Part shown: positions 39,694 through 58,949 of the stretch, one piece after another | How positions within the stretch are numbered: position 1 is the stretch's first letter | Layout of the letters: each line of letters begins with the position of its first letter | Assembly (NCBI GenBank): GCA_022823945.1 | Contig: JAJEBK010000009.1 | Span: 124,001 to 188,000 of the forward strand | Length of the DNA stretch: 64,000 nucleotides | Direction: 5' to 3' | DNA from: Anaerolineae bacterium | GTDB lineage: Bacteria; Chloroflexota; Anaerolineae; Aggregatilineales; Phototrophicaceae | Program-made: the position numbers and the translations under genes | Notes under the pieces: generated by a model | What the model saw: only the letters and a program-made list of their open reading frames with translations | What the model was told of the DNA's origin: nothing | Databases searched by the model: none

Positions 39694-41270
39694 CGTCTGT
39701 TGTCCTCGCGGATCATGTGCGCCGCTTTTTCGCCGATCATGATGCAGGGCGCATTGGTGTTGGCGTTGATGATGCGCGGCATAATCGAAGCGTCAGCCAC
39801 GCGCAGCCCTTCCAACCCATGCACGCGCAGCCGTTCGTCCACCACCGCCAACCGATCATCGCCCATCTTGCAGGTGCAGGCTGGATGATAAATCGTGGTG
39901 GCGAATTCGCGGATGAAATGAATGAGTTCCGCGTCCGCTGTGACCTGCGCGCCGGGCAAAAATTCATCGCCGCGAACCGCATCAAATGCGCTTGCCTGGG
40001 CGATCTGTCGCGCAAGTTTGACCCCCGTCAGCAGAATGCGAACATCGTCATCGTGGCTCAGGCAGGCGAAGTCGATCAATGGTGCCGCGCAGGGATCTGC
40101 CGATGCCAACTCGAGCTTGCCGGCGCTCTTTGTGCCGACCAAGCCAGCCAGAATCGTGAAGCCATGCCCGTCAGGTGTCGCGAAGCCGTGGCGTATGAAC
40201 CAGTCGGGACCAAAGTGATATTGCAACTCGGGCGCGGGCGAACGCGGGTCGAGCCGCACGAATCCGCCCGCCTCGCCCAGGTTTGATGTCAGCAAGCCCA
40301 TGCGCTCTTGTTCATAAAGCCGTTGCTGCTCCGGCGCGTTCTTCCCGACCAGGCTGATTGACGCATGGCAATGATAGGCGACCGGCACCTGCATATGATC
40401 TGTCAAGCCCTGCCCAACGCCCGGCAGGTCCGCTACCACGGGGATGCCGTGTCTTGCCAACTGCGCAGCCGCCCCAATGCCCGAAATCAACAGCAGTTGT
40501 GGCGAGTTGATCGCGCCGCCACAGACGATAACTTCCTTTCTCGCCTGTGCTGTCTTGCGCTCACCCTCGTGCCAAAGCTCGACTCCCTGGCAGCGTCTGC
40601 CCTCAAAACACAAGCGCGTGACGCGGGCATAGGGCAAAGCGGTGAAATTCGGTCGCTGCAAGGCTGTTTGCAGGTAACCGACGGCACTGCTGTGTCGCTG
40701 TCCGCGCTTCTGCGTAACCTGGTAGAGCCCAAAGCCCTCTTGTTCGCCAGCATTAAAATCCTCGCGCGGCGCATATCCCAGTTCCAGCGCGCCAGCCACA
40801 AATGCGCGGCTCAACGGATTTGGATCTCGCAGGTCCGCTACATTGATCGGCCCGCCGATGCCGTGATGCCGCGATGCGCCGCGTTCCTGATGCTGCATTT
40901 TTTTGAACCAGGGCAGCACATCCCGGTATGCCCAGCCACTGTTGCCCGCCTCCGCCCAGCCATCATAATCGGATGGATGTCCGCGCTGATAGACCATGGC
41001 ATTCATGGAACTGGTGCCGCCATATACTTTGCCGCGCGGCACATATTCTCGCCGTCCGTTCAGCCCCGGTTGGGGCACAGTTTCATAATCCCAATCGAAC
41101 TCGCTGTGAAAGAGGTCGGAAAAACGCGCCGGCACATGGATAGCCGGATCGCTGTCGGGTCCGCCCGCTTCCAGCAGCAGCACAGCCGCATGCGGGTCTT
41201 CGCTCAAGCGCGCCGCGACAGCTGCCCCGGCCGAGCCCGCGCCGATGATGATGTAGTCTGCCTCGTGCAT
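39690..41270 (-). CDS. GMC family FAD-dependent oxidoreductase
   Basis: About 526 residues, normal for the choline/glucose dehydrogenase family. The FAD site is YIIIGAGSAGAAVAARL with the second part LLEAGG. GMC signature 1 is GKVYGGTSSMNAMVYQRG and signature 2 is GGAINSPQLLLISGIG. The active-site His region reads YHPACTCKMG near the C-terminus, and the partner Asn lies in INANTNAPC. It oxidises an alcohol or sugar hydroxyl with FAD. It is followed by the tandem GH117-like gene with a 4-base overlap, so the sugar released there is a plausible substrate; this is inference. The ATG at 41270 has AGGAAGAG upstream; the ORF track uses the preceding GTG. Confidence 0.93.
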   Translation of the reverse strand: MHEADYIIIGAGSAGAAVAARLSEDPHAAVLLLEAGGPDSDPAIHVPARFSDLFHSEFDWDYETVPQPGLNGRREYVPRGKVYGGTSSMNAMVYQRGHPSDYDGWAEAGNSGWAYRDVLPWFKKMQHQERGASRHHGIGGPINVADLRDPNPLSRAFVAGALELGYAPREDFNAGEQEGFGLYQVTQKRGQRHSSAVGYLQTALQRPNFTALPYARVTRLCFEGRRCQGVELWHEGERKTAQARKEVIVCGGAINSPQLLLISGIGAAAQLARHGIPVVADLPGVGQGLTDHMQVPVAYHCHASISLVGKNAPEQQRLYEQERMGLLTSNLGEAGGFVRLDPRSPAPELQYHFGPDWFIRHGFATPDGHGFTILAGLVGTKSAGKLELASADPCAAPLIDFACLSHDDDVRILLTGVKLARQIAQASAFDAVRGDEFLPGAQVTADAELIHFIREFATTIYHPACTCKMGDDRLAVVDERLRVHGLEGLRVADASIMPRIINANTNAPCIMIGEKAAHMIREDNRR

Positions 41271-41302
41271 CACCTTGTTCTCTTCCTACTTTGAGCGATT
41301 AG

Positions 41303-41331
41303 TTGACCTGGACTTGTCAATTGTCTACAAT
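41303..41331 (+). promoter_or_regulatory. Sigma70 promoter of the GH117-like gene at 41411, -10 inside the operator
   Basis: TTGACC, 17 bases, TACAAT. The -10 hexamer forms the right half of the palindrome ATTGTCTACAAT, so a bound regulator would block polymerase. Confidence 0.75.
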
Positions 41332-41336
41332 TGACA
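41315..41336. promoter_or_regulatory. Operator 1: perfect 22-bp palindrome, GntR-type
   Basis: TGTCAATTG and CAATTGACA form a perfect 9-bp inverted repeat around four bases. The core ATTGTCTACAAT recurs at 58982 and, as ATTGTCAACAAT, at 47545. The TTGTnnACAA form is typical of FadR-subfamily GntR operators. It lies between the GMC gene and the divergent GH117-like gene and could control both. Confidence 0.78.
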
Positions 41337-41410
41337 GCATAGGTGTCAAGGTATGCAAATCTCATATGCGGCTATTTTCGCTTGTCGAATGCAGGGAAAA
41401 GGGAGACACA

Positions 41411-42646
41411 ATGAACGAAGACAGCAAAAAACCTCGCGCTTTCCCTGGCATGCTGCCACAGACCAAACCCACCGACCGCCCTTTGAGCGCGGCTACCCAG
41501 CGCGTTTATGACATGTGGACGCCCAAGCAAGACCCTGGCAACCCCTTCTATACCAACTTCATGTATTCGCGCGTCACGGGCATCGGCAAAGACGAATCGG
41601 AAATGTCGGTTTCGCGGCGCGACCCGTCCAAGGTGCTCAAGATCGGCGATACCTATTATGTTTGGTACACGCGGCGCATCACCGAGCATGTGCCAGTGGG
41701 CATGCGCCACCACGACCAGGCGAATGAAGAGATCCCCGCTGTCGACTGGGACCTGGCCGATATCTGCTATGCCACCTCGAAAGATGGTTTCGACTGGGTG
41801 GAGCAGGGCATCGCCGTGCCGCGCGCGCCCAAAGGCACTTATGGCGATCGCTCGCTTTCCACGCCGGATATCCTGGTCTGGAAAGGGCGATATTATCTGT
41901 ATTACCAGTGCTTCACGACCAAGTGGCGGGCGCATGACTGCGTTGGCGTCAGCATGGCGCATGCCGATTCGCCGGATGGTCCCTGGGCGCGCATGGATGT
42001 GCCGATTGTCCCGCAAGGCGCGCCCGGCGAATGGGACAGCTGCGCCATCCACGACCCGTATCCGCTGGTCTACAAGGGACAGGTTTGGCTCTATTACAAA
42101 GGCTCGCCATTTGAGAAAGTCTCAGGCGGTTTGCTGCGCGCGCAGGGTGTCGCCATCGCCGACCAGCCAGAGGGTCCCTTCATCAAGTCCGAACTGAACC
42201 CGGTCACCAATTCCGGGCATGAAACCATGTATTGGAATTACAAAGGCGGCATTGCTACATTGCTGATCCTGGATGGGCCGGAAAAAGACACCATTCAATT
42301 TGCGCCAGACGGACTGAACTTCCAGCCCATGGCGCATGTGCAGTTGTCGCCGGTGGCGCCTGGTCCCTTCTGCCCCGATGCCTTCGCGGATAACGGCGAT
42401 GGGCGCGGCATCACCTGGGGACTCAGCCACATCACGCCGCCTGGCGATGGTTCGCGCAGGGGCTGTCATATCATCCGCTTCGATTGTGACTTGTCGCGCG
42501 ACTGTCATCGCCCAGAATTCAAGCGCAGCAACCTGCACTTCGGCGAAGAGACTTTCTTTCAGCGGGTGGCGCGTCTGCCCGCAGACTGGCGCGAGCGCAT
42601 CCTGGCGGAACAAGCCGCCTTCGATAAGCCGACCATCGGCGTCTAA
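41411..42646 (+). CDS. GH117-like glycoside hydrolase (single domain)
   Basis: 411 residues, one propeller domain with the N-terminal helical extension (PLSAATQRVYDMW) that both domains of the tandem protein also have. Motifs in order are RRDPSKV (D71), YVWYTRR, WDLADICYATSKDG, STPDIL, IHDPY (H214-D215), NSGHET (H270-E271) and GPEKDTIQFA. The predicted catalytic residues D71, D215, H270 and E271 are all kept. There is no signal peptide, so it should work in the cytoplasm on imported oligosaccharides. The start is set by GGGAG five bases before the ATG; the ORF-track start at 41303 is inside the promoter. Transcription begins at the operator-controlled promoter just upstream. Confidence 0.86.
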   Translation: MNEDSKKPRAFPGMLPQTKPTDRPLSAATQRVYDMWTPKQDPGNPFYTNFMYSRVTGIGKDESEMSVSRRDPSKVLKIGDTYYVWYTRRITEHVPVGMRHHDQANEEIPAVDWDLADICYATSKDGFDWVEQGIAVPRAPKGTYGDRSLSTPDILVWKGRYYLYYQCFTTKWRAHDCVGVSMAHADSPDGPWARMDVPIVPQGAPGEWDSCAIHDPYPLVYKGQVWLYYKGSPFEKVSGGLLRAQGVAIADQPEGPFIKSELNPVTNSGHETMYWNYKGGIATLLILDGPEKDTIQFAPDGLNFQPMAHVQLSPVAPGPFCPDAFADNGDGRGITWGLSHITPPGDGSRRGCHIIRFDCDLSRDCHRPEFKRSNLHFGEETFFQRVARLPADWRERILAEQAAFDKPTIGV

Positions 42647-42652
42647 ATTCGC

Positions 42653-43423
42653 TCAGCGCCCCATCCAGCCGCCGTCGACAACCAGAATCTCGCCATTGAC
42701 GAAATCGGAGGCGGCCGATGCCAGGAAGACGACGGGTCCCTTAAAATCGTCTATCGTGCCCCAGCGCCCGGCCGGGATGCGCTCTGTGATGGCGCGGTAC
42801 CGTTCGGGATCATTTTGCAGCGCTTCGGTTACATCGGTGCGCACATAACCGGGCGCTATGGCATTCACCTGTACGCCGCCGCTCGCCCATTCGTTCGCCA
42901 GCGCCTTCGTCAATTGCCCGATGCCGCCCTTGCTGGCTGCATAGCCCGGCACCGTGATGCCGCCTTGAAAAGTCAGCAACGAGGCCGTGAAGATGATCTT
43001 GCCGCTGCCTCGCTCCAGCATGCGCGCGCCGAGCTCGCGACTGAGCACGAACTGGGCGCTCAGGTTGATTTCGATGATGCGATCCCAATAGTCATCGCTG
43101 TGCGATGCGGCCGGCTCGCGCAGGACAGCCCCCGCGTTGTTGACCAAAATGTCGATGACGGGGTGTTCACTCGTCACCTGCCCGATAAATTCGTGCAGTT
43201 TGTCGCGTTTTGAGAAGTCGCAGCGATAGCCAGCGAAGCGCCGCCCCTGCGCCAGGACAGCCCGCTCAATATCGCTGCCGCTGGCTTCCAGGCTGGCGCT
43301 GACCGCGATGATATCCGCGCCAGATTCTGCCAGTGCGCTGGCCATGGCGAATCCAATGCCGCGGCGCGCGCCGGTCACCAGCGCTGTCTTGCCATCCAGC
43401 CGAAATGTATCGAGTACGTTCAT
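42653..43423 (-). CDS. KduD-like short-chain dehydrogenase (2-keto-3-deoxy-aldonate 5-dehydrogenase type)
   Basis: 256 residues with the classical SDR layout: TGARRGIG (17-24) for NAD(P), NNAG at 95-98, catalytic S148, Y161 and K165 in YAASK. The closest family I recognise is KduD of uronate metabolism: ASLLTFQGGITVPGYAASK, NEWASGGVQVNAIAPGY and IPAGRWG...VNGEILVVDGGW correspond block by block. KduD interconverts 2-keto-3-deoxygluconate and the 2,5-diketo form. Here it follows the MDR gene with a TGATG junction and a GGAGGTG Shine-Dalgarno, so the two enzymes are made together, fitting a two-step oxidation-reduction at C5. Confidence 0.9.
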   Translation of the reverse strand: MNVLDTFRLDGKTALVTGARRGIGFAMASALAESGADIIAVSASLEASGSDIERAVLAQGRRFAGYRCDFSKRDKLHEFIGQVTSEHPVIDILVNNAGAVLREPAASHSDDYWDRIIEINLSAQFVLSRELGARMLERGSGKIIFTASLLTFQGGITVPGYAASKGGIGQLTKALANEWASGGVQVNAIAPGYVRTDVTEALQNDPERYRAITERIPAGRWGTIDDFKGPVVFLASAASDFVNGEILVVDGGWMGR

Positions 43424-44439
43424 CACACCTCCAACAGAATCTTCATGACGCGTCCGCCTTTTTCCATGTCCTGAAAGACGGACTGCAGCGCATTCAAGGG
43501 GCGGATATCGGTAATCAGCTCGTCCAGCGGCAGCGCGCCAGAAGCAGCCAGGTCGATGGCTGTGGCGAAGTCTTGACTTTCATAAACGCGCACCCCTTGC
43601 AGACGCAGCTCGCGCCAAAAGAAGCGAAACAGGTCCAGCTTTGGCGGCTGGGCGAAGATCGCGACCACCACTGCCAATCCGCGCGTGCGCAGCAACTCGG
43701 TCATCACATCTGCGCCAGCCTGCGAGCCCGATACTTCAAAGACGATATCGGCGCCAGCGCCACCGGTGCGCCGCAGCACCGCCGCCAGCAGATCAGCCTC
43801 GCGTGGATTTATCGCCTCGAACCCAAGCTGCCTCGCCAGGTCGACGCGGTAGGGATTGATTTCGGAGACGATCACATCTGCGCCAGCCTGCTGCGCCACC
43901 AGCGCCACCAGCATGCCGATGGGACCGCCGCCCAGCACGACCACCTGATCGCCCGCCTGCACATTTGCCAGCCGCACATCATGACAGGCGACTGCCAGCG
44001 GCTCGATCAGTGCGCCATGTTGCAGCGAAAGCGAGGCAGGTACGCGGTGCAATGTATTGGCTGGTACCGTCCAGTAGCTCTGGAATGCGCCTGGCGTGTC
44101 GATGCCCAGGAAGTCCAGATTGTGGCAGATGTGGCTGTGACCGGCTGCGCAAGCGGGGCAGTTGTAGCAGGCTGCCAGCGGCATGACGACCACCCGGTCG
44201 CCTGGCGCGAACTCGTCGACGCCTGCGCCCAGCGTGTGCACTGTGCCCGACATTTCGTGCCCCATCACCAGCGGCATCTGCACGCGCGCATCCATCGCGC
44301 CGTGAAAAATGTGCAGGTCTGTGCCGCAAATGCCACAGTGTGAAACGCGCAACTGCACCTCGTCTGCGGCAGGCGGACGCGGCTCGCATTCGCCCTGCCG
44401 GATGCGGCGCTCACCTTCATAAAAAGCTGCGATTGCCAT
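43423..44439 (-). CDS. Zinc-dependent medium-chain dehydrogenase (threonine/sorbitol dehydrogenase-like)
   Basis: About 338 residues. Catalytic zinc ligands are C38 in GICGTD and H61-E62 in GHEMSG. The structural zinc lobe has C91, C94, C97 and C105 in CYNCPACAAGHSHIC. The NAD site is VVLGGGPIGML. The family oxidises secondary alcohols of polyols, aldonates and threonine. Together with the KduD-like SDR directly downstream it would complete the epimerisation of 2-keto-3-deoxy-galactonate through the 2,5-diketo intermediate; this is inferred from context, not from specificity residues. The ATG at 44439 is preceded by AGGACGAG; the ORF track begins six codons earlier. Confidence 0.92.
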   Translation of the reverse strand: MAIAAFYEGERRIRQGECEPRPPAADEVQLRVSHCGICGTDLHIFHGAMDARVQMPLVMGHEMSGTVHTLGAGVDEFAPGDRVVVMPLAACYNCPACAAGHSHICHNLDFLGIDTPGAFQSYWTVPANTLHRVPASLSLQHGALIEPLAVACHDVRLANVQAGDQVVVLGGGPIGMLVALVAQQAGADVIVSEINPYRVDLARQLGFEAINPREADLLAAVLRRTGGAGADIVFEVSGSQAGADVMTELLRTRGLAVVVAIFAQPPKLDLFRFFWRELRLQGVRVYESQDFATAIDLAASGALPLDELITDIRPLNALQSVFQDMEKGGRVMKILLEV

Positions 44440-44497
44440 GTCTCGTCCTGTTTCCATTCGGGCGAGTCATCGCCACGCCCCTGGATATAGATAGCTG

Positions 44498-45106
44498 TTA
44501 CTGGATATTGGCGTAAAGCGCGTTGATTGCGCCTGGCTTGTCGCCGCTGCGGATAGCATCCAGGATGCGCTTGTGCTCGCGGTAGCTTTCCATGATATCG
44601 CCATGACGCGTATATTGCATCATCATGCGCATGGCGATCGGCTGCCACAGCGTGAAGATGTCTTTGTCATCGTGGCTCTGGATAATCGCCTGGTGGAAGC
44701 GCAGGTCGCAGTCGGTCAGCGCATCGACATCGTTGTTTTGACACGCTGCGTGGATATCCGCCAGGATATCTTCCCAACGCCCGATATCGATCTCGGTGAT
44801 GCGATCGAAGATGCTGTCCAGCACAAAAGTCTCGATAGTTCGGCGCAACTGCACGACTAGCGGCCGCACCTCCACGCTGGGATTTTGGGCGACACGCGCG
44901 CCTTTGTTGGGCTCGAGCACCAGCAAACCCTGTTGGGTAAGCTGGCGGAATGCCTCGCGCACGGGTCCGCGGCTGACCCCGAATCGCTGCGAAAGGTCAG
45001 CCTCGCGCAGGGGATCGCCGGGTTTCAGTTTGTTGGAAAGCACTTCACGGCGCAGGCGCGCGGCGATCTGCTCGGGCAGCGTACGATAGATTTCGATTGT
45101 CGTCAT
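44498..45106 (-). CDS. GntR family transcriptional regulator, FCD domain
   Basis: 202 residues. The winged helix spans about 8-75 with ADLSQRFGVSRGPVREAFRQL, the GntR recognition helix. The FCD effector domain follows (about 90-200) with metal-binding His in RFHQAI and REHKRIL, so the effector is probably a carboxylic acid such as an aldonate held through a metal. It belongs to the FadR subfamily, whose operators have the form TTGTnnACAA. Three such palindromes overlap promoters of the surrounding island, so it is the likely local repressor, released by a pathway intermediate. It lies 58 bases upstream of the MDR gene, on the same strand. Confidence 0.93.
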   Translation of the reverse strand: MTTIEIYRTLPEQIAARLRREVLSNKLKPGDPLREADLSQRFGVSRGPVREAFRQLTQQGLLVLEPNKGARVAQNPSVEVRPLVVQLRRTIETFVLDSIFDRITEIDIGRWEDILADIHAACQNNDVDALTDCDLRFHQAIIQSHDDKDIFTLWQPIAMRMMMQYTRHGDIMESYREHKRILDAIRSGDKPGAINALYANIQ

Positions 45107-45313: not shown

Positions 45314-46459
45314 TCATTGTTTGTAGGGGTCGGCGGCATCTCGCAAGCCATCGCCCAGGAAGTTGAATGCCAGCACGGTCACGATGACAAAGAGTCCCGG
45401 GATCAAGAGCCAGGGACTTTGGCTGAGGCTGCGGATATTTTGCGCGTCTTGCAGCAGCACACCCCAGCTGACGGCGGGTGGGCGAATGCCGATCTGCAAG
45501 AAACTCAGCGATGTCTCGGCAAGGATCATGCCCGGCACCGCCAGGCTGAGCACAACGATCAAGAAGCTGGCGAACGATGGCAGCAGGTGCTTCAAGATGA
45601 TATCCAGGTCGCCCATGTTGGATATGCGCGCCGCCATGACGAAATCAGCCTCGCGCAGTTCCAGCAATTTGCCGCGCACCGCTCTTGCCAGCGTCGTCCA
45701 GCCGACGGTGGCCAGCACCAACGTGATGCCAAAATACACTTGGGTCGAACTCCACTCGGCGGGCAGAGCAGCCGCCAGTGCAATAATCAGCGGGATTGAC
45801 GGGATCGATATCAAAAATTCGATCAGGCGCTGTATCACCAGATCGACCACGCCGCCGAAGTAGCCAGAGATGCCGCCGAACAGACAGCCAAGCACAAAAC
45901 TGATGATGACGCCCAGGAAACCGATCGACAGCGAGATTCGCGCCGCGTGCATGGTGCGGGAGTATAAATCGCGCCCCAGGTCATCTGTGCCAAATGGGAA
46001 GAAGACGCCCGGCGCTTCCACGCCCATCAGATGGATGTTGCTTTCTAGCAAGCCGAGAATCTTGTAGGGCTCGCCCTGCACGAAGAAGTGGATCGGATAC
46101 TTTTTGTCGCGCACTTCGGAATAATTGCGCTGCAAAGTGTCCATATCCAGGGTTTGCTTCATCTGATAAATGAAGGGTTGCAGGCTGAAAATGCCCGCGT
46201 CATCGACAAAGTAAATGGTATGCGGCGGAGACTTCGCAAACTGGACATGGCGCTTTTGGTAGTCGTTGATGGCATAAAATTCGGAGAAGAGCGCCATCGA
46301 ATAGAGAACGATGATGACAGCCAGCGACCCGATCGCCAGGCGATGCCGCCGAAATTTGCGCCAGATCAGCTGCCACTGCGATGCGAGATAATAGCTCTCG
46401 TCATAAGCGGTGGCTTCCGCTTCGGCTGTTTTGCGCCTGATGCCGATTCGCCGCAACAT
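45314..46459 (-). CDS. ABC transporter permease, OppC/DppC family
   Basis: 381 residues with an N-terminal helix (about 42-60), a long outside segment (about 65-155), then five helices of the BPD_transp_1 domain. The EAA loop reads LREADFVMAARISNMGDLDIILKHLLP, the contact site for the ATPases. The N-terminal OppC_N type extension is longer than average. It follows the OppB-like gene by 12 bases with a GGCGGAG Shine-Dalgarno. With OppB, the solute-binding protein at 48840 and the two ATPases at 56882-58949 it completes a family-5 importer, here probably for oligosaccharides. Confidence 0.94.
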   Translation of the reverse strand: MLRRIGIRRKTAEAEATAYDESYYLASQWQLIWRKFRRHRLAIGSLAVIIVLYSMALFSEFYAINDYQKRHVQFAKSPPHTIYFVDDAGIFSLQPFIYQMKQTLDMDTLQRNYSEVRDKKYPIHFFVQGEPYKILGLLESNIHLMGVEAPGVFFPFGTDDLGRDLYSRTMHAARISLSIGFLGVIISFVLGCLFGGISGYFGGVVDLVIQRLIEFLISIPSIPLIIALAAALPAEWSSTQVYFGITLVLATVGWTTLARAVRGKLLELREADFVMAARISNMGDLDIILKHLLPSFASFLIVVLSLAVPGMILAETSLSFLQIGIRPPAVSWGVLLQDAQNIRSLSQSPWLLIPGLFVIVTVLAFNFLGDGLRDAADPYKQ

Positions 46460-46471: not shown

Positions 46472-47467
46472 CTAATCTGCCGCGCGTTCCATGCGGATGC
46501 GCGGGTCGACAACGACCAGCAGAATATCGGATACCGTCGTGCCGATGACGGTAAGAATCGTGACGAACATCAGCAAGCTCGCTGTCAAGAAAGTGTCTTG
46601 TGTCAGCAGGGAGCGCAGCAGCATCGGTCCCGCCGTGGGCAAGCCCAGCACATAGGCGGTGATGGTGCCGCCCGATATCAAGCTGGGGAAGAGCCAGGCG
46701 AGGCTGCTGACGATTGGGTTGAGCGCCACACGCACTGGATATTTGAAGAGCAATCTAACTTCGCCCACGCCTTTGCTGCGCGCGGTGATGACATACTGCT
46801 TGTTCAGCTCGTCCAGCAGCGTGCCGCGCATGACGCGAATCAAGCCGGCCGTGCCGCTCGTGCCGACCACGATGATGGGAATGGGTAGGTGTTTGGCCAG
46901 GTCGACCAGCTTCGCCAAATCCCAGGGCGCGCCTTGAAACTCCTGAGAAAACAAACCGGTCAAATTCAGACCAAATTGCGACCACGCCACATAAAGCATG
47001 ATCAGCGCCAGCATAAAGTTGGGAATCGACAAGCCGATGAAGCCGATGAAAGAAACGATGTAATCGCTGATGGAGTATTGCCGCGCTGCGGAATAAATGC
47101 CGATGGGGATGGCCACCGCATAAGTGAAGATGGCGGTCAGAATCGCAATCGTGAAAGTCAAAGCAAGCCGCTCGCCGATGATATCGCGCACCGGCTGCTG
47201 CCAATCAAACGAGAATCCGAACTCACCCTGCAGCACTTGCCGAAACCAGCTGAAGTAGCGGGCATAAATGGGCAGGTCCAACCCATACTGGCGGCGCAGG
47301 TTCGTCACCTGCTCGTCCGAAAGCTGCTCTCCCGCCTGTTCCAGACGGCTGATGTAGCTGGAAAGATAGTCGCCCGGCGGCAGCTGAATCACGATGAAAG
47401 TTACGATGGTGACCAGCCACAGCAGGAAGACCATATAGACCAGGCGCTGCAGCACATAATTTCTCAT
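46472..47467 (-). CDS. ABC transporter permease, OppB/DppB family
   Basis: 331 residues, the standard OppB size, with six helices. The N-terminus MRNYVLQRLVYMVFLLWLVTIVTF is typical, and the ATPase-contact loop is DELNKQYVITARSKGVGEVRLLFKYPVR. It is the first gene of a two-gene permease unit and is divergent from the enolase-SBP operon. Its promoter (TTGACA-17-TACAAT) overlaps the second operator copy at 47545, so importer permease expression should follow the GntR regulator. Confidence 0.95.
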   Translation of the reverse strand: MRNYVLQRLVYMVFLLWLVTIVTFIVIQLPPGDYLSSYISRLEQAGEQLSDEQVTNLRRQYGLDLPIYARYFSWFRQVLQGEFGFSFDWQQPVRDIIGERLALTFTIAILTAIFTYAVAIPIGIYSAARQYSISDYIVSFIGFIGLSIPNFMLALIMLYVAWSQFGLNLTGLFSQEFQGAPWDLAKLVDLAKHLPIPIIVVGTSGTAGLIRVMRGTLLDELNKQYVITARSKGVGEVRLLFKYPVRVALNPIVSSLAWLFPSLISGGTITAYVLGLPTAGPMLLRSLLTQDTFLTASLLMFVTILTVIGTTVSDILLVVVDPRIRMERAAD

Positions 47468-47523: not shown

Positions 47524-47552
47524 ATTGTAGTCGCTGAATTGCAGATTGTCAA
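47524..47552 (-). promoter_or_regulatory. Sigma70 promoter of the oppB-oppC-like permease genes
   Basis: On the minus strand TTGACA (consensus), 17 bases, TACAAT. The -35 lies inside the operator palindrome. Confidence 0.78.
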
Positions 47553-47556
47553 CAAT
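47545..47556. promoter_or_regulatory. Operator 2: ATTGTCAACAAT, GntR-type
   Basis: A palindromic half-site pair ATTGT-CA-ACAAT, matching the cores at 41320 and 58982 except for the central dinucleotide. It overlaps the -35 of the permease promoter and lies just upstream of the -35 of the divergent enolase promoter. A second inverted pair, ATTGTCA and TGACAAT, spans 47545-47570. Confidence 0.7.
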
Positions 47557-47562
47557 GTACAC

Positions 47563-47590
47563 TTGACAATTTGCCGAGAGTCGGTTATTT
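47563..47590 (+). promoter_or_regulatory. Probable promoter of the enolase-SBP-GH117-sulfatase operon
   Basis: TTGACA, 16 bases, TTATTT; with a 17-base spacer the -10 is TATTTC. The -35 is perfect and the -10 is weak. It is adjacent to operator 2. Confidence 0.5.
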
Positions 47591-47674: not shown

Positions 47675-48778
47675 ATGAACGAGCCCTTGCGCATCGCCTG
47701 CGTCGAAACCCGACATTTCTTGCTGCCGCTCAGCCATCCCATGACCGATGCCACGCATGGCGTGCACACCGAGTTTGAGGTGGTGGCTGTGCGCCTGGAA
47801 AGCGATTGTGGCACCAGCGGCATCGGCTATACCTACACAATTGGGCGTGGCGGCGCGGCGATCCGCTCTTTGATCCAGCGCGATGTACAAGCGCTGCTGC
47901 TGGGCGCTGACGCCTGGCGCATAGAGCAGATCTGGGAGCGCATGTGGCGCTGCCTGCATTATGTGGGGCGGGGCGGGCTGGCAGCCTTCGCCATGTCGGC
48001 GGTCGATATCGCCTTGTGGGATCTGCTGGCGCGCAGCCAGAGGCAGCCGCTTTGGAAGCTGCTGGGCGGATATTCTGGCGAGGCGCGCGCCTATGCCGGC
48101 GGCATTGATTTGCAGTTGGGACCAGACGAACTGGTCGAGCAGACGCGCTGCAACCTTGCTGACGGCTTCCGCGCCATCAAAATCAAGGTGGGCCGCGACA
48201 AACTGTCCGAAGATATCGCCAGGCTGCGGGCGGTGCGCGATTGTCTGGGACCCGATATTCCGCTGATGGTCGATGCCAACATGCGCTGGACAACCGAACA
48301 GGCGATCCGCGCGGCGCGCAGTTTCCACGACTATGATGTCTTCTGGCTGGAAGAGCCGACTATCCCCGACGATTACGCCGGCTTGAGCCGAATCGCGCGG
48401 GAAGGCGGTTTGCCCATCGCCGCGGGCGAAAACCTGCGCACGATCTATGAATTCCGCCACACACTCGAGGCTGGCATCGCTTTTGCCGAACCCGATGTAT
48501 CCAACATAGGCGGCATCACCAACTGGATGCGCGTGGCGCGGCTGGCCTATGCGCACAACTTGCCAGTTACTTCGCATGGCGTGCACGAGCTGCACTTGCA
48601 CTTGTTGGCGGCTATCCCCAATGCTTCATACTTGGAAGTGCACAGCTTCGGCTTGGAGCGCTTCATTTTGAATCCGCCCAAACTGCATGATGGCGTGATG
48701 CGCGCCGGCGCAGAGCCAGGCCACGGCGTGCAATTTGAGTGGGACAAACTGCGTGAATACGAAGTGAAAGGAGACTGA
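47675..48778 (+). CDS. Enolase superfamily, mandelate racemase type (candidate anhydro-aldonate cycloisomerase)
   Basis: About 367 residues. Every key residue of the mandelate racemase subgroup is present at nearly the family's numbering: K169-x-K171 (IKIKVG), metal ligands D200 (MVDAN), E226 (LEEP) and E252 (GEN), and the His-Asp dyad D274 (EPDVSNIGG) and H301 (SHGVHE). These enzymes abstract a proton next to a carboxylate, so an aldonate substrate is expected. The 3,6-anhydro-L-galactonate cycloisomerase of agar-degrading Vibrio belongs to this superfamily; with GH117-like neighbours that activity is a good candidate, though a plain aldonate dehydratase cannot be excluded. ATG at 47675 has GGGAG upstream. 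First gene of a six-gene operon. Confidence 0.92.
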   Translation: MNEPLRIACVETRHFLLPLSHPMTDATHGVHTEFEVVAVRLESDCGTSGIGYTYTIGRGGAAIRSLIQRDVQALLLGADAWRIEQIWERMWRCLHYVGRGGLAAFAMSAVDIALWDLLARSQRQPLWKLLGGYSGEARAYAGGIDLQLGPDELVEQTRCNLADGFRAIKIKVGRDKLSEDIARLRAVRDCLGPDIPLMVDANMRWTTEQAIRAARSFHDYDVFWLEEPTIPDDYAGLSRIAREGGLPIAAGENLRTIYEFRHTLEAGIAFAEPDVSNIGGITNWMRVARLAYAHNLPVTSHGVHELHLHLLAAIPNASYLEVHSFGLERFILNPPKLHDGVMRAGAEPGHGVQFEWDKLREYEVKGD

Positions 48779-48839: not shown

Positions 48840-50849
48840 ATGAAACGAAGTCAATTTGTACTCATGACTGTCTTGGCATTGGTCTTGCTGCCGACTGTCG
48901 TTTTCGGGCAAGCCATGCACGAGGGCGAACTGGTCTATCCATTCCAATATGCCGACCTCGCTGCCTACTCCGCCGCAACTGGCAACAGCATCGAAAGCTG
49001 GGGCGAGGCGCCTATGCTGGCGGAGAAAGTCGCCGCTGGCGAGCTGCCACCGGTAGAAGAGCGCCTGCCCGCGCAACCTGTCGTCGTCCAGCCGCTGGAG
49101 CAAATCGGCGAATATGGCGGCGAGCTGAAGGGTCCGTCGGCGCTGCCCACTTGCTGTGGCTGGGATGTGCTGGAGATGCGTTTGCAGAAGCTGCTGACCA
49201 TCGATACCGACTTGATCAGCATCATCCCCAATGTCGCGCAATCCTTTGATGTTTCTGACGACCAGACGACCTTCACTTTCACACTTCGCGAGGGGCACAG
49301 ATGGTCGGACGGCGAAGCATTCACCACCGATGACTTCCGCTTCTGGTTCGAGGATGTGCTTGGCAACCCCGAGCTGACTCCCGCGCCGGGCGGTCCCTGG
49401 GTGCTGGATGGCGAACTGCCAGCGATGGAGATCATTGACGAGCGGACGATCCGTTTCTCGTATCCAGAAGCCCGTCCCACGCTCCTCATCGCCATCGGCA
49501 GCGAGATCAATCATCGCGGCTATCGGCCCGCTCACTACTTTGAGCAGTATCACATCGACTACAACCCTGACGCGAGCGCGCTGGCGGACGAACTGGGCTT
49601 TGAAAGCTGGGTGCAGATGTTCAACGCCAAGATGAACACCTACAACAACACCTGGAATCTGGGCTCGGAGACCGATCCCTATTCGCCAACCCTGAACACC
49701 TTTGTGTTTGTGAGCGAAGACGCCTTTGGCAACAAGCTCTACGAACGCAACCCCTACTTCTTCAAGGTCGACACGGCTGGCAATCAGCTGCCATATACCG
49801 ATACCTTGCGCCGCCTGCTGGTAGAAGATGTGCAGGTGCAGGATTTGAAAGGCATCGCTGGCGAATACACGCACTTTGGCTGGGGCTCGCTGGGCAGCTA
49901 TCCGACCTATCGCGAGAATGAAGAAGCGGGCGGCTATCGCACAGCGCTGGCGGAATACAGCCGCGCCAACGAGTATTCGCTGATGTTCAACTTCACGACC
50001 GAAAACCTCCCCCTGCGCGAGATCTTCTGGGATGTGCGCTTCCGCCAAGCCATGTCTGTCGCCATCAACCGCGACGAGATCAATGAGTTGGTCTACTTCG
50101 GCTTGGCCAATCCCTCACAGAGTGCGCCGGTGCCCTCCTCGGCTTTCTATGAGCCTTGGATGACCACCAACTACGCGCAGTACGATCCCGACTTGGCCAA
50201 TCAGTTGCTGGACGAGATGGGGCTGGACCAGCGCGATGCCGATGGCTTCCGCATGCGCCCGGATGGCGAGACGCTCTTCATCAACTTCCAGGTCTATGTG
50301 CCAGAAGATTCCTGGCGTCAGATCGGCGAGTTGATCACCTCCTATTGGAACGAAGTCGGCGTCAAGACTCAGTACAAGATCATTGGCGATGGGCTCTTCC
50401 GCGAGCTGCGCAACAGCAATTCGCTGGATATCTCGGCTTGGGCTGCCGACATCCTGGATATCGGCGCGATGGCCAGCGGCCTGAGCAATATGCGCGTAAG
50501 CTGGGGCAACCGCGCTTCGGGCATCCCCTGGCGGGATTGGATCCTCAACGACGGCGAAATCGGCGAAGAGCCACCGCAGGAGATCATCGACCTGTATGAA
50601 ATGGGCGAGACTTATCTGTCCCAACGCTATGGTTCCGATGAGTGGCTGGAGGCTGGCAAAGCCTTCTACAACACTTCCTTCGGCGGTCTCTATCAGATCG
50701 GCACCATCCAGCGTCCGCCGCAGCCGCTGCTCTTCAAGACGAACTTGAAGAACACGCCGCCCAATGACACGGTCGGTCAGTGGGCGTGGAGCTACCGGCA
50801 GTGGGTCATGTTCATGCCCGAACAATGGTACTTCGAAGGCGGCAGCTAG
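48840..50849 (+). CDS. ABC transporter solute-binding protein, family 5 (SBP_bac_5)
   Basis: 669 residues. A signal peptide is clear: MKRSQFVLMTVLALVLLPTVVFG, probably cut before QAMHEG by signal peptidase I; there is no lipobox Cys. The SBP_bac_5 core is recognisable by FTFTLREGHRWSDGEAFTTDDF, typical of the family, and later VRFRQAMSVAINRDEI. It is longer than peptide-binding members because of an inserted N-terminal segment. Family-5 proteins bind peptides, nickel or oligosaccharides; the surrounding glycosidases and sulfatase point to an oligosaccharide. GAGGAG precedes the ATG. It is the receptor for the permeases at 45314-47467. Confidence 0.94.
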   Translation: MKRSQFVLMTVLALVLLPTVVFGQAMHEGELVYPFQYADLAAYSAATGNSIESWGEAPMLAEKVAAGELPPVEERLPAQPVVVQPLEQIGEYGGELKGPSALPTCCGWDVLEMRLQKLLTIDTDLISIIPNVAQSFDVSDDQTTFTFTLREGHRWSDGEAFTTDDFRFWFEDVLGNPELTPAPGGPWVLDGELPAMEIIDERTIRFSYPEARPTLLIAIGSEINHRGYRPAHYFEQYHIDYNPDASALADELGFESWVQMFNAKMNTYNNTWNLGSETDPYSPTLNTFVFVSEDAFGNKLYERNPYFFKVDTAGNQLPYTDTLRRLLVEDVQVQDLKGIAGEYTHFGWGSLGSYPTYRENEEAGGYRTALAEYSRANEYSLMFNFTTENLPLREIFWDVRFRQAMSVAINRDEINELVYFGLANPSQSAPVPSSAFYEPWMTTNYAQYDPDLANQLLDEMGLDQRDADGFRMRPDGETLFINFQVYVPEDSWRQIGELITSYWNEVGVKTQYKIIGDGLFRELRNSNSLDISAWAADILDIGAMASGLSNMRVSWGNRASGIPWRDWILNDGEIGEEPPQEIIDLYEMGETYLSQRYGSDEWLEAGKAFYNTSFGGLYQIGTIQRPPQPLLFKTNLKNTPPNDTVGQWAWSYRQWVMFMPEQWYFEGGS

Positions 50850-50921: not shown

Positions 50922-52007
50922 ATGACTATCAGCGCCGCCATGCGCCGGTTTCAGCGACCGGACAGAGTAAATCCCTGGTTTGCCAAGTTCAAATATAGCC
51001 CGGTGACTGGGCTGGGCTACGAGAAAGGCATCGTGCGCCGCGACCCCAGCGCCATCTTGCGCATTGATGGCGAATACTTCATCTGGTATACCCGCGCCGC
51101 TCACCCATGCCCGCCAGTCGGCTTCGACCGCATGACGGATACGTTGCCGGCGACGCCCTGGGACTTGGCAGATGTCTGGTATGCCACCTCGGCCGATGGG
51201 CATCATTGGAACGAAATCGGTCCCGCTGTCGAGCGCGGCGGTCCTGGCGCATACGACGAGCGTGGCGTCTTCACGGCCGATGTCGTGCAAATCGACGGGC
51301 GCTATTACATGGTCTACCAGGTGGCACCCAATCCCAACTATCGCAGCACGCCGGAATCTATCGCCATCGCCTGGGCAGATTCGCCGCATGGTCCCTGGAC
51401 GAAGAGCGCAGCGCCCATCCTCGAGCCGCATCCATCGGGCCAGGTCGATGAGCGCAAAGATCGCGAGGATTGCATTGAGCCGGGCGAGTGGGATAGCCTG
51501 CAAGTGCATGATCCTGCCTTGATGCTTCGCGAAGGCAAATACTGGCTCTACTACAAAGGCGAGGGCATCGGCATCCACCACATGGAGAGCAAGTGGGGCG
51601 TCGCTATCGCCGACGATCCTCTGGGTCCATACACCCGCTCGCCATTCAATCCCGTCACGAATAGCGGGCACGAGGTGGTCGTCTGGCAATACGCTGGCGG
51701 CGTGGCCGGCTTGGTCAATCGCTGCGGTCCGGAGAAAAATACAATTCAGTTCGCAGCCGACGGCATCAACTTCGAGATCATGTCGCAGCTGGTTGTGCCG
51801 CCGCAAGCCGCTGGACCTTTTCGCGTCGATGAGGCGGAGAATACCGAGCCGCTCTCGCGATTCCGCTGGGGCTTGAGCCATGTCATCCCGCGCAGCTCCC
51901 ACCTTGTCATGCAGGGACGGGATCCCTTGGGCTTGGCGGCTGTCGAAGAGCCTTGGGATTTCCTCGTTCGCTGGGACCTTGATTTCGAGCGCCGCGAGTA
52001 TATCTGA
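50922..52007 (+). CDS. GH117-like glycoside hydrolase (short form)
   Basis: 361 residues, shorter at the N-terminus than the copies at 37216 and 41411. Motifs are RRDPSAI (D41), FIWYTR, WDLADVWYATSADG, VHDPA (H196-D197), NSGHEV (H250-E251) and GPEKNTIQFA. The predicted catalytic set is complete. Two differences mark this pair of short proteins: FTADVV replaces FTPDIL here, and both carry a GRDPLGL segment near the C-terminus. There is no signal peptide. GGAGG precedes the ATG. It lies 72 bases after the binding-protein gene and 22 before its close paralogue, so a recent duplication is likely. Confidence 0.86.
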   Translation: MTISAAMRRFQRPDRVNPWFAKFKYSPVTGLGYEKGIVRRDPSAILRIDGEYFIWYTRAAHPCPPVGFDRMTDTLPATPWDLADVWYATSADGHHWNEIGPAVERGGPGAYDERGVFTADVVQIDGRYYMVYQVAPNPNYRSTPESIAIAWADSPHGPWTKSAAPILEPHPSGQVDERKDREDCIEPGEWDSLQVHDPALMLREGKYWLYYKGEGIGIHHMESKWGVAIADDPLGPYTRSPFNPVTNSGHEVVVWQYAGGVAGLVNRCGPEKNTIQFAADGINFEIMSQLVVPPQAAGPFRVDEAENTEPLSRFRWGLSHVIPRSSHLVMQGRDPLGLAAVEEPWDFLVRWDLDFERREYI

Positions 52008-52029: not shown

Positions 52030-53121
52030 ATGCACAGCGCTGCCATGGCACGCTACCAGCCCGACCGCCACAATCCCTGGTTCACGCGCTTTCGCTACCA
52101 ACTGGTCGAAGGGCTGGGTTATGAGCGCGGCATCGTTCGGCGCGACCCCAGCTGCATCATCCAGGTCGATGGCACATACTTCGTTTGGTATACGCGCGGC
52201 GCGCATCCCTGCGTCCCGGTTGGGCACGATCATGCGACCGAGACAGCGCCCGCTGTCGCCTGGGATTTGTGCGATGTCTGGTATGCCACTTCCCGCGATG
52301 GACACAGCTGGCAAGAACAGGGCCCAGCCGTAAAGCGCGGTCCCGCTGGCAGTTATGACGAACGCAGCGTCTTCACGCCCGATGTGCTGGCGCATGACGG
52401 ACGGTATTACCTCGTTTATCAGGTTACGAGGGCACCTTCTTATCGCAGCACACCCGAGTCGATCGCCATCGCCCACGCCGATTCGCCGCATGGTCCCTGG
52501 ACCAAGTCTCCCGCGCCGGTTGTCGAGCCAGATCCATCGGGAGAAGTCGATGAACGCGCGCATCCCGAACAGGCGACTGTGCCGGGCAGCTTCGACAGCC
52601 TGCGCGTGCACGACCCGGCGTTGCTCTTCCGCGATGGGCGCTATTGGCTCTATTTCAAGGGCGAAGGCATCGGTCACAGCAATATGGAAAGCAAGTGGGG
52701 CGTGGCCATCGCCGATGATGCGCTGGGTCCATATACCAAATCGCCATTGAACCCCATCACCAACAGCGGTCACGAGGTCATGGTATGGGAATACGCTGGC
52801 GGCGTCGGCGCGCTGTTGACTCGCTGCGGTCCCGAGAAAAATACCATCCAGTTCGCCGCGGACGGCCTCAACTTCCAGCCCATGTCCACCATCATCGCGC
52901 CTCCCCAAGCCACCGGCGCACTGCGCGTGCCAGCCAGCGACAACAACGAGCCTTTGTCCGGCTTGAGCTGGGGGCTCAGCCATGTGACGACTTACAGCGC
53001 CCACCTGTCATGGCAGGGACGCGATCCACTGGGCCTGAGCGAAATCGACGAGCCTTGGGATTTCATCATCCGCTGGGAACGCGAAGGGCTGCCAAAGGGC
53101 GCAGACGGGCACGATGCCTAG
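52030..53121 (+). CDS. GH117-like glycoside hydrolase (short form, paralogue)
   Basis: 363 residues, closely similar along its length to the preceding gene. Motifs are RRDPSCI (D39), FVWYTRG, WDLCDVWYATSRDG, FTPDVL, VHDPA (H194-D195), NSGHEV (H248-E249) and GPEKNTIQFA. The predicted catalytic residues are kept, so both paralogues should be active, perhaps on differently substituted oligosaccharides. The N-terminal Asn-Pro-Trp segment (RHNPWFTRFRY) replaces the longer helical region of the other copies. The ATG at 52030 follows GAGAGGAG; the ORF track begins inside the previous gene. Its end overlaps the sulfatase start by 8 bases. Confidence 0.87.
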   Translation: MHSAAMARYQPDRHNPWFTRFRYQLVEGLGYERGIVRRDPSCIIQVDGTYFVWYTRGAHPCVPVGHDHATETAPAVAWDLCDVWYATSRDGHSWQEQGPAVKRGPAGSYDERSVFTPDVLAHDGRYYLVYQVTRAPSYRSTPESIAIAHADSPHGPWTKSPAPVVEPDPSGEVDERAHPEQATVPGSFDSLRVHDPALLFRDGRYWLYFKGEGIGHSNMESKWGVAIADDALGPYTKSPLNPITNSGHEVMVWEYAGGVGALLTRCGPEKNTIQFAADGLNFQPMSTIIAPPQATGALRVPASDNNEPLSGLSWGLSHVTTYSAHLSWQGRDPLGLSEIDEPWDFIIRWEREGLPKGADGHDA

Positions 53122-54757
53122 ACCGCCCAATGTCGTCTTCGTCATCACCGACGACCAGGGCTACGGCGATATCGGCTGCCACGGTAATCCCCATCTGAAA
53201 ACGCCCCACCTCGACCGGCTGGCTGACGAAAGCGCCCAGTTGGACGATCATCACCACGACCCGCTGTGCTCGCCTTCTCGCGCAGCGCTGCTGACGGGCC
53301 AATATGCGGCGCGCAACGGCGTGTGGCATGTCATCCAGGGGCGGCATCTGTTGGACCCAGGCGCAGTCTGCATGACGGAGATCTTCGCCCAAAACGGATA
53401 TCACACGGGCATGTTTGGCAAGTGGCATCTGGGCGACAATTATCCGTTTGCTCCACAATATCGTGGCTTTGACGAAACGCTTTGCCATCGTGGCGGCGGC
53501 GTTGGCGAACTGCCAGATTATTGGGGAAACAGCTATATTGACGATGTCTATTTTCGGGATGGGTCGCCTTTGCAGTGCGCTGGCTATTGCACAGATGTCT
53601 TCTTTGATGCCGCGCTGGATTTTATACAACGCCACAGCAACCAGCCCTTCTTTGTCTACCTGGCCACCAATGCTATGCACGCGCCTTTCATCGTGCCAGA
53701 GCGATATGCCGCGCCATACCGGACGATGGATATGCCGGCGGATCGCGCCAATTTCTATGGCATGATCGCCAATTTCGACGAAAACATGGGCAGGCTGCTG
53801 GATCATCTGCGCGCGCTGGGGCTGGACAGCAATACAATCGTCCTCTTCACCGCCGATCATGGCACAGCCGCTGGCTGGGACGAAGCAGCGAATTGCGGCT
53901 TCAACGCGGCCATGCGCGGGGCGAAAGGCTCGGTCTATGAAGGCGGGCATCGCGTCAACTGCTTCTTGCGCTGGAAAGGGACGATTCCCGCAGGTCGGAA
54001 AATGTCCGGGCTGACGGCGCATGTTGATGTGCTGCCGACTCTGCTCGACCTGTGCGATTTGGAAAGCGACGCACCTTTCGATGGCATCAGCCTGGCAAAG
54101 CAGCTGCTCGGCGCGGAAAGCGATTTGCCGCAGCGGTCCCTGGTCGTCCAACTGCAGCCGGATACGCCGCGGAAGTGGCATCATTGCGTTGTGCTGAATG
54201 GCAAGTGGCGGCTTGTCGGTGGCAGCGAATTGTATAACATCGAAAGCGATCCTGCGCAGCAGCGCGATGTGGCGGCGGCGAATCCACAGGTTCTCGCGGC
54301 GCTGCGAAATGATTACGAAAGCTGGTGGCAAGACCATAGAGACGCATTTGCTCGCACGGTAGCGATACCGGTCGGGACAAAGTATGAAAATACTGTGCTG
54401 CTGTCGGCGCGCGATTGGCATCCGACCGTGGGCCAAGTCCCCTGGCTGCAAGCCTGGATCGACGACCCCGCTTATGACTCCAATGGCTGGTGGCTGGTCG
54501 ATATTGCGCAGATAGGGCAGTATCGCATTGAACTGCGCACACATCCACGCGAGGCGAACCGTGCCATGAACTCCTCAACAGCGCGACTGCAAGTGGGTGA
54601 AACAACGGTGGAAAGGGCGGTGTTGGCTGGCGACATCGCGGCGGTCTTCAGGCTGGATTTGCCCAGGGGCGAAGTCAAATTGCAGACCTGGCTGGACGAC
54701 GAATCCGGCTCCCGGCGGCGCGGCGCGTATTATGTTTATGTGACGAAAGTCGTGTAG
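53114..54757 (+). CDS. Type I sulfatase (formylglycine-dependent, S1 family)
   Basis: 547 residues. Metal ligands begin with ITDDQG (D13, D14). The maturation site is C52-S-P-S-R56 followed by AALLTGQ, the cysteine type that a formylglycine-generating enzyme converts; no such enzyme is in the window. Later blocks GKWHLGD and FTADHGTAAGWDE fit the S1 fold. There is no signal peptide, so it should act in the cytoplasm on imported sulfated oligosaccharides, unlike many periplasmic polysaccharide sulfatases. The last 120 residues (from about 430) form a C-terminal beta domain common in arylsulfatase A-like proteins. Translational overlap with the GH117-like gene suggests coordinated desulfation and hydrolysis. 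Confidence 0.95.
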   Translation: MPRPPNVVFVITDDQGYGDIGCHGNPHLKTPHLDRLADESAQLDDHHHDPLCSPSRAALLTGQYAARNGVWHVIQGRHLLDPGAVCMTEIFAQNGYHTGMFGKWHLGDNYPFAPQYRGFDETLCHRGGGVGELPDYWGNSYIDDVYFRDGSPLQCAGYCTDVFFDAALDFIQRHSNQPFFVYLATNAMHAPFIVPERYAAPYRTMDMPADRANFYGMIANFDENMGRLLDHLRALGLDSNTIVLFTADHGTAAGWDEAANCGFNAAMRGAKGSVYEGGHRVNCFLRWKGTIPAGRKMSGLTAHVDVLPTLLDLCDLESDAPFDGISLAKQLLGAESDLPQRSLVVQLQPDTPRKWHHCVVLNGKWRLVGGSELYNIESDPAQQRDVAAANPQVLAALRNDYESWWQDHRDAFARTVAIPVGTKYENTVLLSARDWHPTVGQVPWLQAWIDDPAYDSNGWWLVDIAQIGQYRIELRTHPREANRAMNSSTARLQVGETTVERAVLAGDIAAVFRLDLPRGEVKLQTWLDDESGSRRRGAYYVYVTKVV

Positions 54758-56567: not shown

Positions 56568-56882
56568 TCAATCGTCGAAACGACTCGACCAGTCCTGTCG
56601 CACCTGCTCAAGCTCGGCCAGCAGGCTCTCGCGCGTCGACTCCTCGTCGTAGAAGGGGCTATCTTCATAGAACCGGATCATTTCTTCCAGTCGCTTGCGA
56701 GGACCCTTGCGTTTTCCAAGCCAGTGCGGCGGCGGCTCGCCGGTGTCCAGGATGTGGTCGGCGTCCTGGAAGTGCCGCGTGATGGCATGACCTGCCGCGC
56801 GATTGCTCGTCCAATAGATGACGAAGGCCACGCAGCCCGCGCCGACGAGAGACGCCAGAATGAACAACGTGAGAAAACCCAT
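56568..56882 (-). CDS. Small single-span membrane protein, unknown function
   Basis: 104 residues. One N-terminal helix (about 2-25, GFLTLFILASLVGAGCVAFV) is followed by a charged cytoplasmic tail with Lys/Arg- and Glu-rich segments (LGKRKGPRKRLEEM, ESLLAELEQVRQDW), the latter able to form a short coiled coil. I recognise no family. Its ATG overlaps the stop of the OppF-like gene by one base (TAATG) and the GGAGG inside that gene serves as ribosome site, so it is translated with the transporter ATPases. The ORF track extends it into the upstream gene, which is unlikely. It could be an accessory of the importer, on position alone. Confidence 0.72.
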   Translation of the reverse strand: MGFLTLFILASLVGAGCVAFVIYWTSNRAAGHAITRHFQDADHILDTGEPPPHWLGKRKGPRKRLEEMIRFYEDSPFYDEESTRESLLAELEQVRQDWSSRFDD

Positions 56883-57934: not shown

Positions 57935-58949
57935 GGACAGGCTCACTTTCCTGGCTGTGCAAATAGCAGCGCACATGGTGATGGCTGCCCATGTCGACAA
58001 GCGCTGGCACAGCCGCATCACAAACGCCCGCCATGAATTCGTCGCAGCGCGAGCAGAAACCACATTGCGCGGGTGGATTGAGAGGCACCGGCACATTGCC
58101 GCGGATGGCTTCGAGCCGGCGTCCGCGTCCGCCCAGACGAGGGATGGACTTCAGCAGGCGCTGGGTATACGGATGCAGGGGATTCTTGAAAAGTTCACGG
58201 GTCGAAGCGCGCTCTACCACCCGCCCCAGGTACATCACATTGACCTCGTCGGCGATCTCGGCAATGACGCCCAGGTCGTGCGTGATATACATAATCGCCA
58301 TGCCAAACTCGTCTTGCAGCTCTTTCATCAGCTCCAAAATCTGCGCCTGAACAGTGACATCCAGCGCGGTTGTGGGTTCGTCGGCGATCAATAGCGAAGG
58401 ACTGCAGGAAAGCGCCATGGCGATCATCGCCCGCTGCCGCATGCCGCCCGATAGTTGGTGTGGGTATTCGTCAAAGCGCTGGCGGGGGTTGGATATGCCG
58501 ACGCGGTTGATCATGTCCAGCGCCAAGCCTTTCGCCTTGTTTTTGTCGCGGGTGATGTGCAGGCGGATCGCCTCGACAATCTGCGCGCCGATCGTGTGCA
58601 CCGGCGACAGACTGGTCATTGGCTCCTGGAAAACCATGGAGATTTCTGCGCCGCGTATCTCGCGGATTTTGCGGCTGCGCGGGTCCAACTGGCACAGGTC
58701 GGTCGTGCTGCCGTCCGGGCGAGAAAGCAAGATCTGCCCTGACCGGATATAGCCGGGCGTGGGCACGATCTGCAAGATTGACTGCGCTGTCACGCTCTTG
58801 CCAGAGCCCGACTCGCCGATGATGCCAACAGTCTGGCGCGGCGCAATCGCAAAGTCCACGCCATCGACCGCCTTGAGCGTGCCCTCTGTCAGTTTGAAAT
58901 AGGTGCGCAGGTCGTGGACTTCCAGGATGCTTTTGGCGGCGAAGCTCAT
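57927..58949 (-). CDS. ABC transporter ATP-binding protein, OppD/DppD type
   Basis: 340 residues. Walker A is [15 protein letters not shown], the signature is [15 protein letters not shown], and Walker B is [12 protein letters not shown], the OppD form. The C-terminal extension includes the Cys-rich segment [15 protein letters not shown], common in OppD proteins. It is the first gene of the ATPase unit, under a promoter whose -10 lies in the third operator copy, so the ATPases and the permeases, 11 kb apart and on separate transcripts, should respond to the same regulator. Confidence 0.95.

Follow-up and report, generated by a model that had tools for sequence, protein, structure and literature searches.

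Introduction

In the described pathways for 3,6-anhydro-L-galactose (AHG), an ALDH-type dehydrogenase makes 3,6-anhydro-L-galactonate, an unusual ring-shaped sugar acid from red-algal agar, and these dehydrogenases can be far apart in sequence, SCO3486 of Streptomyces coelicolor being 40% identical to VejAHGD (PMC9706016). The next step belongs to the anhydrogalactonate cycloisomerases (ACIs): SCO3480 of S. coelicolor converts anhydro-L-galactonate into 2-keto-3-deoxygalactonate, as established by TLC and mass spectrometry (PMC9706016), and VejACI of Vibrio EJY3 is represented by the structure 5xd7. The subsequent epimerization involves a 2-keto-3-deoxy-L-galactonate 5-dehydrogenase and a 2,5-diketo-3-deoxy-L-galactonate 5-reductase (PMC5943477; PMC5069468). 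Upstream, the GH96 family of α-agarases counts only nine characterised members; Cm-AGA has D994 and E1129 as catalytic residues (PMC11311870), located here via the mutagenesis primers of that study.

Here, we analyze a window, by which we mean the whole 64,000-nucleotide stretch of DNA studied (contig C52 of a 3.5-Mb genome), from an Anaerolineae bacterium. A preliminary description had singled out one of its genes as a candidate anhydro-galactonate cycloisomerase. The enzyme family is known, and the encoded protein adds a member to it in a setting not reported before. Of interest are the locus in which it lies, a GH96 relative, and an AHG dehydrogenase that is apparently absent.

Assignment of the probable cycloisomerase

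At 47675-48778 (+ strand) lies an uninterrupted frame for a protein of 367 residues, which would be six residues longer if translation began at the in-frame ATG at 47657. The frame is no chance product: each of 25 genus genomes, counting that of the window, has an ortholog, with 74-95% identity outside the window's own genome. Among 301 phylum genomes drawn evenly, nothing besides the genus orthologs scored above 326 bits against it. Pfam finds both domains of the mandelate racemase-type enolase that had been announced (MR_MLE_N, 1.9e-20; MR_MLE_C, 6.5e-62), and the six active-site residues listed in the preliminary description (K171, D200, E226, E252, D274, and H301) are exactly where it placed them. 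With K169, which completes a K-x-K motif with K171, they provide a Mg2+ ligand set (D200, E226, E252) and a His-Asp dyad (H301, D274), and K169/K171/D200/E226/E252/D274/H301 align with K164/K166/D195/E221/E247/D270/H297, the active-site set of SCO3480 (PMC9706016). Near the metal site, three residues past E252, residue 255 (window 48437-48439) is an Arg here and in the nearest relatives; His occupies this position in most of the genus and is invariant in five reference ACIs, so that the Arg counts against the ACI assignment.

Two solved structures stand apart as matches, 2ovl (402 bits, 2.2e-119) and 5xd7 (378 bits, 3.8e-112), after which the next solved protein falls to 197 bits (5.2e-57). 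The PDB title of 2ovl is a putative racemase from S. coelicolor. We equate it with SCO3480 because the latter's cloning primers encode an N-terminal MIERVRT and a C-terminal RLAVG (PMC9706016) and RVRTD is found at residue 6 of the 2ovl sequence. The AF2 model of our protein (pLDDT 88) likewise has 2ovl as its top Foldseek match (rmsd 1.5), with 5xd7-9 also at the top and DauB at rank 43.

As the preliminary description had proposed, the protein was placed in a phylogeny with characterised cycloisomerases and aldonate dehydratases (maximum likelihood, 43 rows, including SCO3480, VejACI, TalrD, the GalD-like 3rr1, DauB, and GCI). It groups with SCO3480 and VejACI in a 19-member clade (94/84) that holds one of these characterised ACIs in each half, and its sister is formed by SCO3480 and a Caballeronia protein (98/88). 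TalrD, 3rr1, DauB, and GCI all lie outside; placement in a dehydratase clade, named beforehand as the refuting outcome, did not occur. The protein keeps 100 of the 112 positions invariant in five ACI/agar-linked proteins, and it has 14/14 diagnostic residues vs 0-4/14 in eight outgroups, although these 14 positions were chosen from the same alignment and are partly circular, describing membership rather than proving it independently. The sister of the ACI clade is a group from Chloroflexota (L070-L074), whose three aligned members have 0/14 of these residues. The genome of the window also encodes an enolase-superfamily paralog with one in-frame TAG stop (contig C54:4474-5565; L053).

These data bear directly on whether the gene could encode a galactonate, talarate/galactarate, or other classical aldarate/aldonate dehydratase. 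Such enzymes have the superfamily residues in common with our protein, and the NCBIfam talarate/galactarate dehydratase model matches it at 1e-70. However, every NCBIfam equivalog cut-off is missed widely (140.6 of 311 bits for galactonate and 238.6 of 500 bits for talarate/galactarate dehydratase), TalrD itself has none of the 14 diagnostic residues, and the tree places the protein elsewhere. We rejected this assignment on the cut-offs and the tree, and consider it extremely improbable.

A second possibility is a DauB-like cycloisomerase acting on the mirror-image anhydro-D-galactonate. The superfamily and chemistry are common to both, and the sulfatase of the locus has as its nearest solved relative an exo-4S-κ-carrageenan S1 sulfatase (6prm, 2.1e-54). 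Against this, the protein is merely 30% identical to DauB (5olc, 144 bits), which sits in a separate clade, the GH117 enzymes and the ADH/SDR pair of the locus belong to the L route, and the genome has a separate DauB-like paralog that is 52% identical to DauB. Score, tree, and the better paralog led us to reject the D-type assignment, which we judge very unlikely, and the L-enantiomer is the sole reading favoured for the substrate. The DauB-like paralog (contig C35:2873-4000; L046, L089, L100) occurs in 16 of 17 genomes of the genus that were searched; the neighbouring 16 kb contains no carrageenan genes. The genus may handle both anhydrogalactonate enantiomers.

The substrate could vary within the ACI clade because some members have no GH117 gene nearby; such kin from soil and plant bacteria (Priestia, Geobacillus, Mesorhizobium, Caballeronia) count against the ACI assignment. 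Clade members that adjoin sugar ABC transporters without GH117, and a 65% identical gene beside a GH32-type gene in L041, would fit an enzyme (aldonate dehydratase or cycloisomerase) that acts on some other sugar acid, not derived from agar. That gene (L041:6045-7232) is on a mine-derived contig labelled Thermotoga, which lacks GH117; its neighbours also include sugar ABC transporter genes, an MBL-fold gene, and an SDR. The ACI of the window, in contrast, is bracketed by characterised ACIs in the tree, and the genus-conserved locus in which it lies also encodes a GH96 relative and five GH117 domains. Moreover, ADH and SDR of the types found here occur in the Roseibium and Paracoccus clusters, suggesting that these too handle L-KDGal. 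A non-agar substrate appears unlikely. Judging from sequence, tree, gene context, and conservation, 47675-48778 very probably encodes a 3,6-anhydro-L-galactonate cycloisomerase (EC 5.5.1.25); the closest structures, the tree, and neighbours resembling agarolytic pathway enzymes support the cycloisomerase first proposed.

Organization and putative regulation of the locus

The gene had been described as heading a run with a solute-binding protein (SBP), GH117-like genes, and a sulfatase. The + strand run is indeed composed in this way, with two GH117 genes, and it further contains a glycosidase gene at 54774 that had gone unnamed (Table 1). The GH117 identification holds as well, through resemblance to the AhgA structures and through four residues (Asp, Asp, His, Glu), which we take to be catalytic and which are kept in all five GH117 domains of the locus, both halves of the 825-residue protein included. 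Linked genes of the L-AHG pathway are found near ACI: GH117, the candidate 5-dehydrogenase, and the candidate 5-reductase, the Catenovulum copy of the last being annotated as 2,5-diketo-3-deoxy-L-galactonate 5-reductase. The ADH and SDR were compared with ACI partners on Catenovulum, B. uniformis, Microscilla, Paracoccus, and Roseibium plasmids.

Table 1 Features of the locus (window coordinates)
Feature	Position	Strand	Evidence or remark
Tandem double GH117, 825 aa	37216..39693	-	Two GH117 domains 53% alike, D/D/H/E kept in both
GMC flavin oxidoreductase, candidate anhydrogalactose oxidiser	39690..41273	-	Pfam GMC N+C; PDB 9lq0 1e-124, choline dehydrogenase-like
Second palindrome copy TTGTCAATTGTCTACAATTGACAG in divergent GMC/GH117_B promoter	41314..41337		One arm mismatch
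GH117_B	41414..42646	+	41-42% to AhgA structures, D/D/H/E kept
SDR, candidate 2,5-diketo-3-deoxy-L-galactonate 5-reductase	42653..43426	-	64-69% to ACI partners on agarolytic plasmids
Zn alcohol dehydrogenase (ADH), candidate 2-keto-3-deoxy-L-galactonate 5-dehydrogenase	43423..44457	-	47-53% to plasmid ACI partners
GntR/FCD-type regulator	44498..45106	-	Pfam GntR + FCD; 37% to GntR adjoining Catenovulum ACI
OppC-type permease	45314..46459	-	Pfam BPD_transp_1 + OppC_N
OppB-type permease	46472..47467	-	Pfam BPD_transp_1
Palindrome TTGTCAACAATGTACACTTGACAA in divergent OppB/ACI promoter	47546..47569		Candidate operator of FCD-type regulator
ACI (probable 3,6-anhydro-L-galactonate cycloisomerase, MR-type enolase)	47675..48778	+	PDB matches, tree, 14/14 diagnostic residues, AF2 model
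Opp-type SBP (SBP_bac_5), N-terminal hydrophobic signal-like stretch	48840..50849	+	Pfam 6.3e-57
GH117_C, anhydro-L-galactosidase type	50922..52007	+	PDB 3r4y 5.2e-97, 3p2n 1.3e-92, 4ak5 1.5e-92; D/D/H/E kept
GH117_D	52030..53121	+	51% to 3r4y, D/D/H/E kept
S1 sulfatase, C-x-P-S-R formylglycine motif (Cys52)	53114..54757	+	Pfam 2.5e-62
GH96 α-agarase relative (activity putative), 596 aa	54774..56564	+	Profile of 16 orthologs vs 9m0b
OppF-type ATPase	56882..58096	-	Pfam ABC_tran + oligo_HPY
OppD-type ATPase	57927..58949	-	Pfam ABC_tran + oligo_HPY

The 54774 protein has no Pfam or NCBIfam match and no obvious signal peptide. A profile of 16 orthologs nevertheless finds the α-agarase structure 9m0b of Catenovulum maritimum (E=1e-48, residues 18-595), and its D138 and E272, invariant in 16/16 orthologs, align with Cm-AGA D994 and E1129. 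Foldseek also ranks 9m0b first, starting from a weak AF2 model (pLDDT 57); the link to GH96 rests on the sequence profile because that model is poor. Relatives were found neither in viral contigs nor on plasmids. The gene is a divergent GH96 relative with a putative α-agarase activity, and its presence in the operon strengthens the agar reading of the locus. Counted against that reading is the lack of a GH16 agarase in the genome, where a GH2 β-galactosidase is only a marginal match.

A 24-bp palindrome in the OppB/ACI intergenic region is kept in 14 of the 14 regions aligned, whereas the remainder of these regions has diverged and their mean column identity is 45%. Allowing up to one mismatch, the genome contains just this site and the copy between GMC and GH117_B, and no site for a reversed control pattern; within this mismatch limit, no further operator site reveals a missing pathway gene. 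The palindrome is a candidate operator that the FCD-type regulator may bind, and its occurrence at both promoters ties the operon of GMC and tandem GH117 to the ACI promoter. Several relatives have an additional copy between ACI and the SBP gene, and many (L023, L024, L026, L027, and others) carry a second SBP gene in tandem after the first, about 61% identical to it.

Candidate enzymes for anhydrogalactose oxidation

The locus holds no ALDH-type AHG dehydrogenase, which is a usual pathway partner and not a defining feature of ACI. Among 17 genomes of the genus searched for an enzyme of the agarolytic type, the best ALDH is 33-36% identical at no more than 290 bits, a background level, whereas the dehydrogenases of agarolytic plasmids are mutually 57-69% identical. 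This counts against the ACI assignment: with no aldehyde dehydrogenase of the AHGD type found, no known enzyme accounts for how ACI obtains its substrate. A divergent ALDH, for which the gene at contig C31:82736-84142 is a candidate, could perform this oxidation, given that SCO3486 and VejAHGD are themselves so dissimilar.

GMC enzymes can oxidise aldehyde hydrates. In view of this chemistry, its place in the locus, a 4-bp overlap of its gene with that of the tandem GH117, and the operator copy at its promoter, the GMC flavoenzyme is the leading, if unproven, candidate to replace the AHG dehydrogenase. The GMC sequence alone is uninformative because plasmids of many bacteria commonly encode homologs at about the 50% level, and on this ground we discarded the idea of a dedicated, family-specific AHG enzyme. 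GMC genes also occur near ACI-like genes on Mesorhizobium, Caballeronia, Paracoccus, and Roseibium plasmids (L083, L084, L086, L087); the Mesorhizobium and Caballeronia enzymes, the two compared, are only about 36% identical to that of the window.

Conservation and apparent host setting

About 30 sponge-type Chloroflexi MAGs share the locus, with few changes in the order GH117dbl, GMC, GH117_B, SDR, ADH, GntR, OppC, OppB, ACI, SBP, GH117_C, GH117_D, sulfatase, GH96-like, OppF, OppD. Its GC content (0.59) equals that of the rest of the window and thus gives no compositional sign of recent transfer. In one species (L016/G014), the GMC and tandem GH117 genes have disappeared together with most of the Zn-ADH, of which about 95 codons remain (L016:3500-8000), and this joint loss suggests a decaying locus; the DauB-like paralog was not found in this genome either.

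Named relatives are Anaerolineae/Chloroflexi MAGs, and they appear to come from sponges, as several bin names (COS, RHO, CAR, APA) would match the initials of sponge hosts named in PMC8163846. Neither GH117 nor any word starting with "agar" occurs in the main text of this study, and part of the text of a paper on Chloroflexi symbionts (PMC6306507) mentions no agar route.

Discussion

We infer the catalytic steps, transport, and regulation of a pathway from the sequence, tree, gene context, and conservation observed here. The Opp transporter would import agar-type oligosaccharides, which the GH96-like enzyme, the sulfatase, and the GH117 enzymes would trim, releasing 3,6-anhydro-L-galactose. 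After oxidation by an enzyme that is uncertain, the sugar acid would be isomerised by ACI. By family analogy, the C2 proton of 3,6-anhydro-L-galactonate may be abstracted by K171 or by the H301-D274 dyad, while Mg2+ held by D200, E226, and E252 would stabilize the enediolate; opening of the 3,6-ether would follow, and the enol would give 2-keto-3-deoxy-L-galactonate. ADH and SDR would then epimerise C5, leading to 2-keto-3-deoxy-D-gluconate. Two KDPG-aldolase-type genes lie elsewhere in the genome.

A broader proposal, which we put forward tentatively as a possibility somewhat short of probable, is a genus-wide agar-sugar pathway of sponge Chloroflexi in which GMC replaces the NADP-dependent AHG dehydrogenase by oxidising hydrated 3,6-anhydro-L-galactose to the acid on which ACI acts, fed by a cytoplasmic GH96-type α-agarase and the tandem GH117. 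If this flavoenzyme replacement is true, evolution has arrived more than once at a way of providing ACI with its substrate. The locus would also place catabolism of agar's defining sugar in uncultured Chloroflexi whose related MAGs are apparently sponge-derived, and the 54774 protein would extend the GH96 family by a divergent branch that is apparently cytoplasmic.

Among known systems, one of the closest is that of S. coelicolor: SCO3480 (PDB 2OVL, 3CK5) is 52% identical over aligned columns, belongs to the same clade, has all active-site residues, and adjoins a GH117 (SCO3481), just as GH117 genes lie near the ACI of the window. It differs in being accompanied by the ALDH-type SCO3486 and secreted β-agarases, whereas no AHGD-type ALDH or GH16 was found in the window's genome. 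VejACI (Vibrio sp. EJY3, PDB 5XD7/8/9) has 46% identity, 14/14 diagnostic residues, and a model TM of about 0.93-0.95, but sits in the other half of the clade. DauB (Zobellia galactanivorans, PDB 5OLC) catalyses an equal type of reaction on the mirror-image substrate; it is separated from our enzyme by identity and clade, and is more closely matched by the paralog elsewhere in the genome. Cm-AGA (GH96, PDB 9M0B) matches the 54774 protein in its catalytic core and both catalytic acids, at about 20% identity, but the latter is without N-terminal modules or an obvious signal peptide. Finally, B. uniformis pBUN1, Microscilla pSD15, and Catenovulum pCadTS8_2 combine ACI with Zn-ADH and SDR homologs, and pBUN1 and the Catenovulum plasmid also have GH117 in the cluster. 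In these three, the AHG dehydrogenase is of the aldA type and uptake is through a symporter or a TonB/Sus-type system, whereas the locus of the window has Opp ABC uptake, a GMC oxidoreductase, a GH96-like protein, and five GH117 domains.
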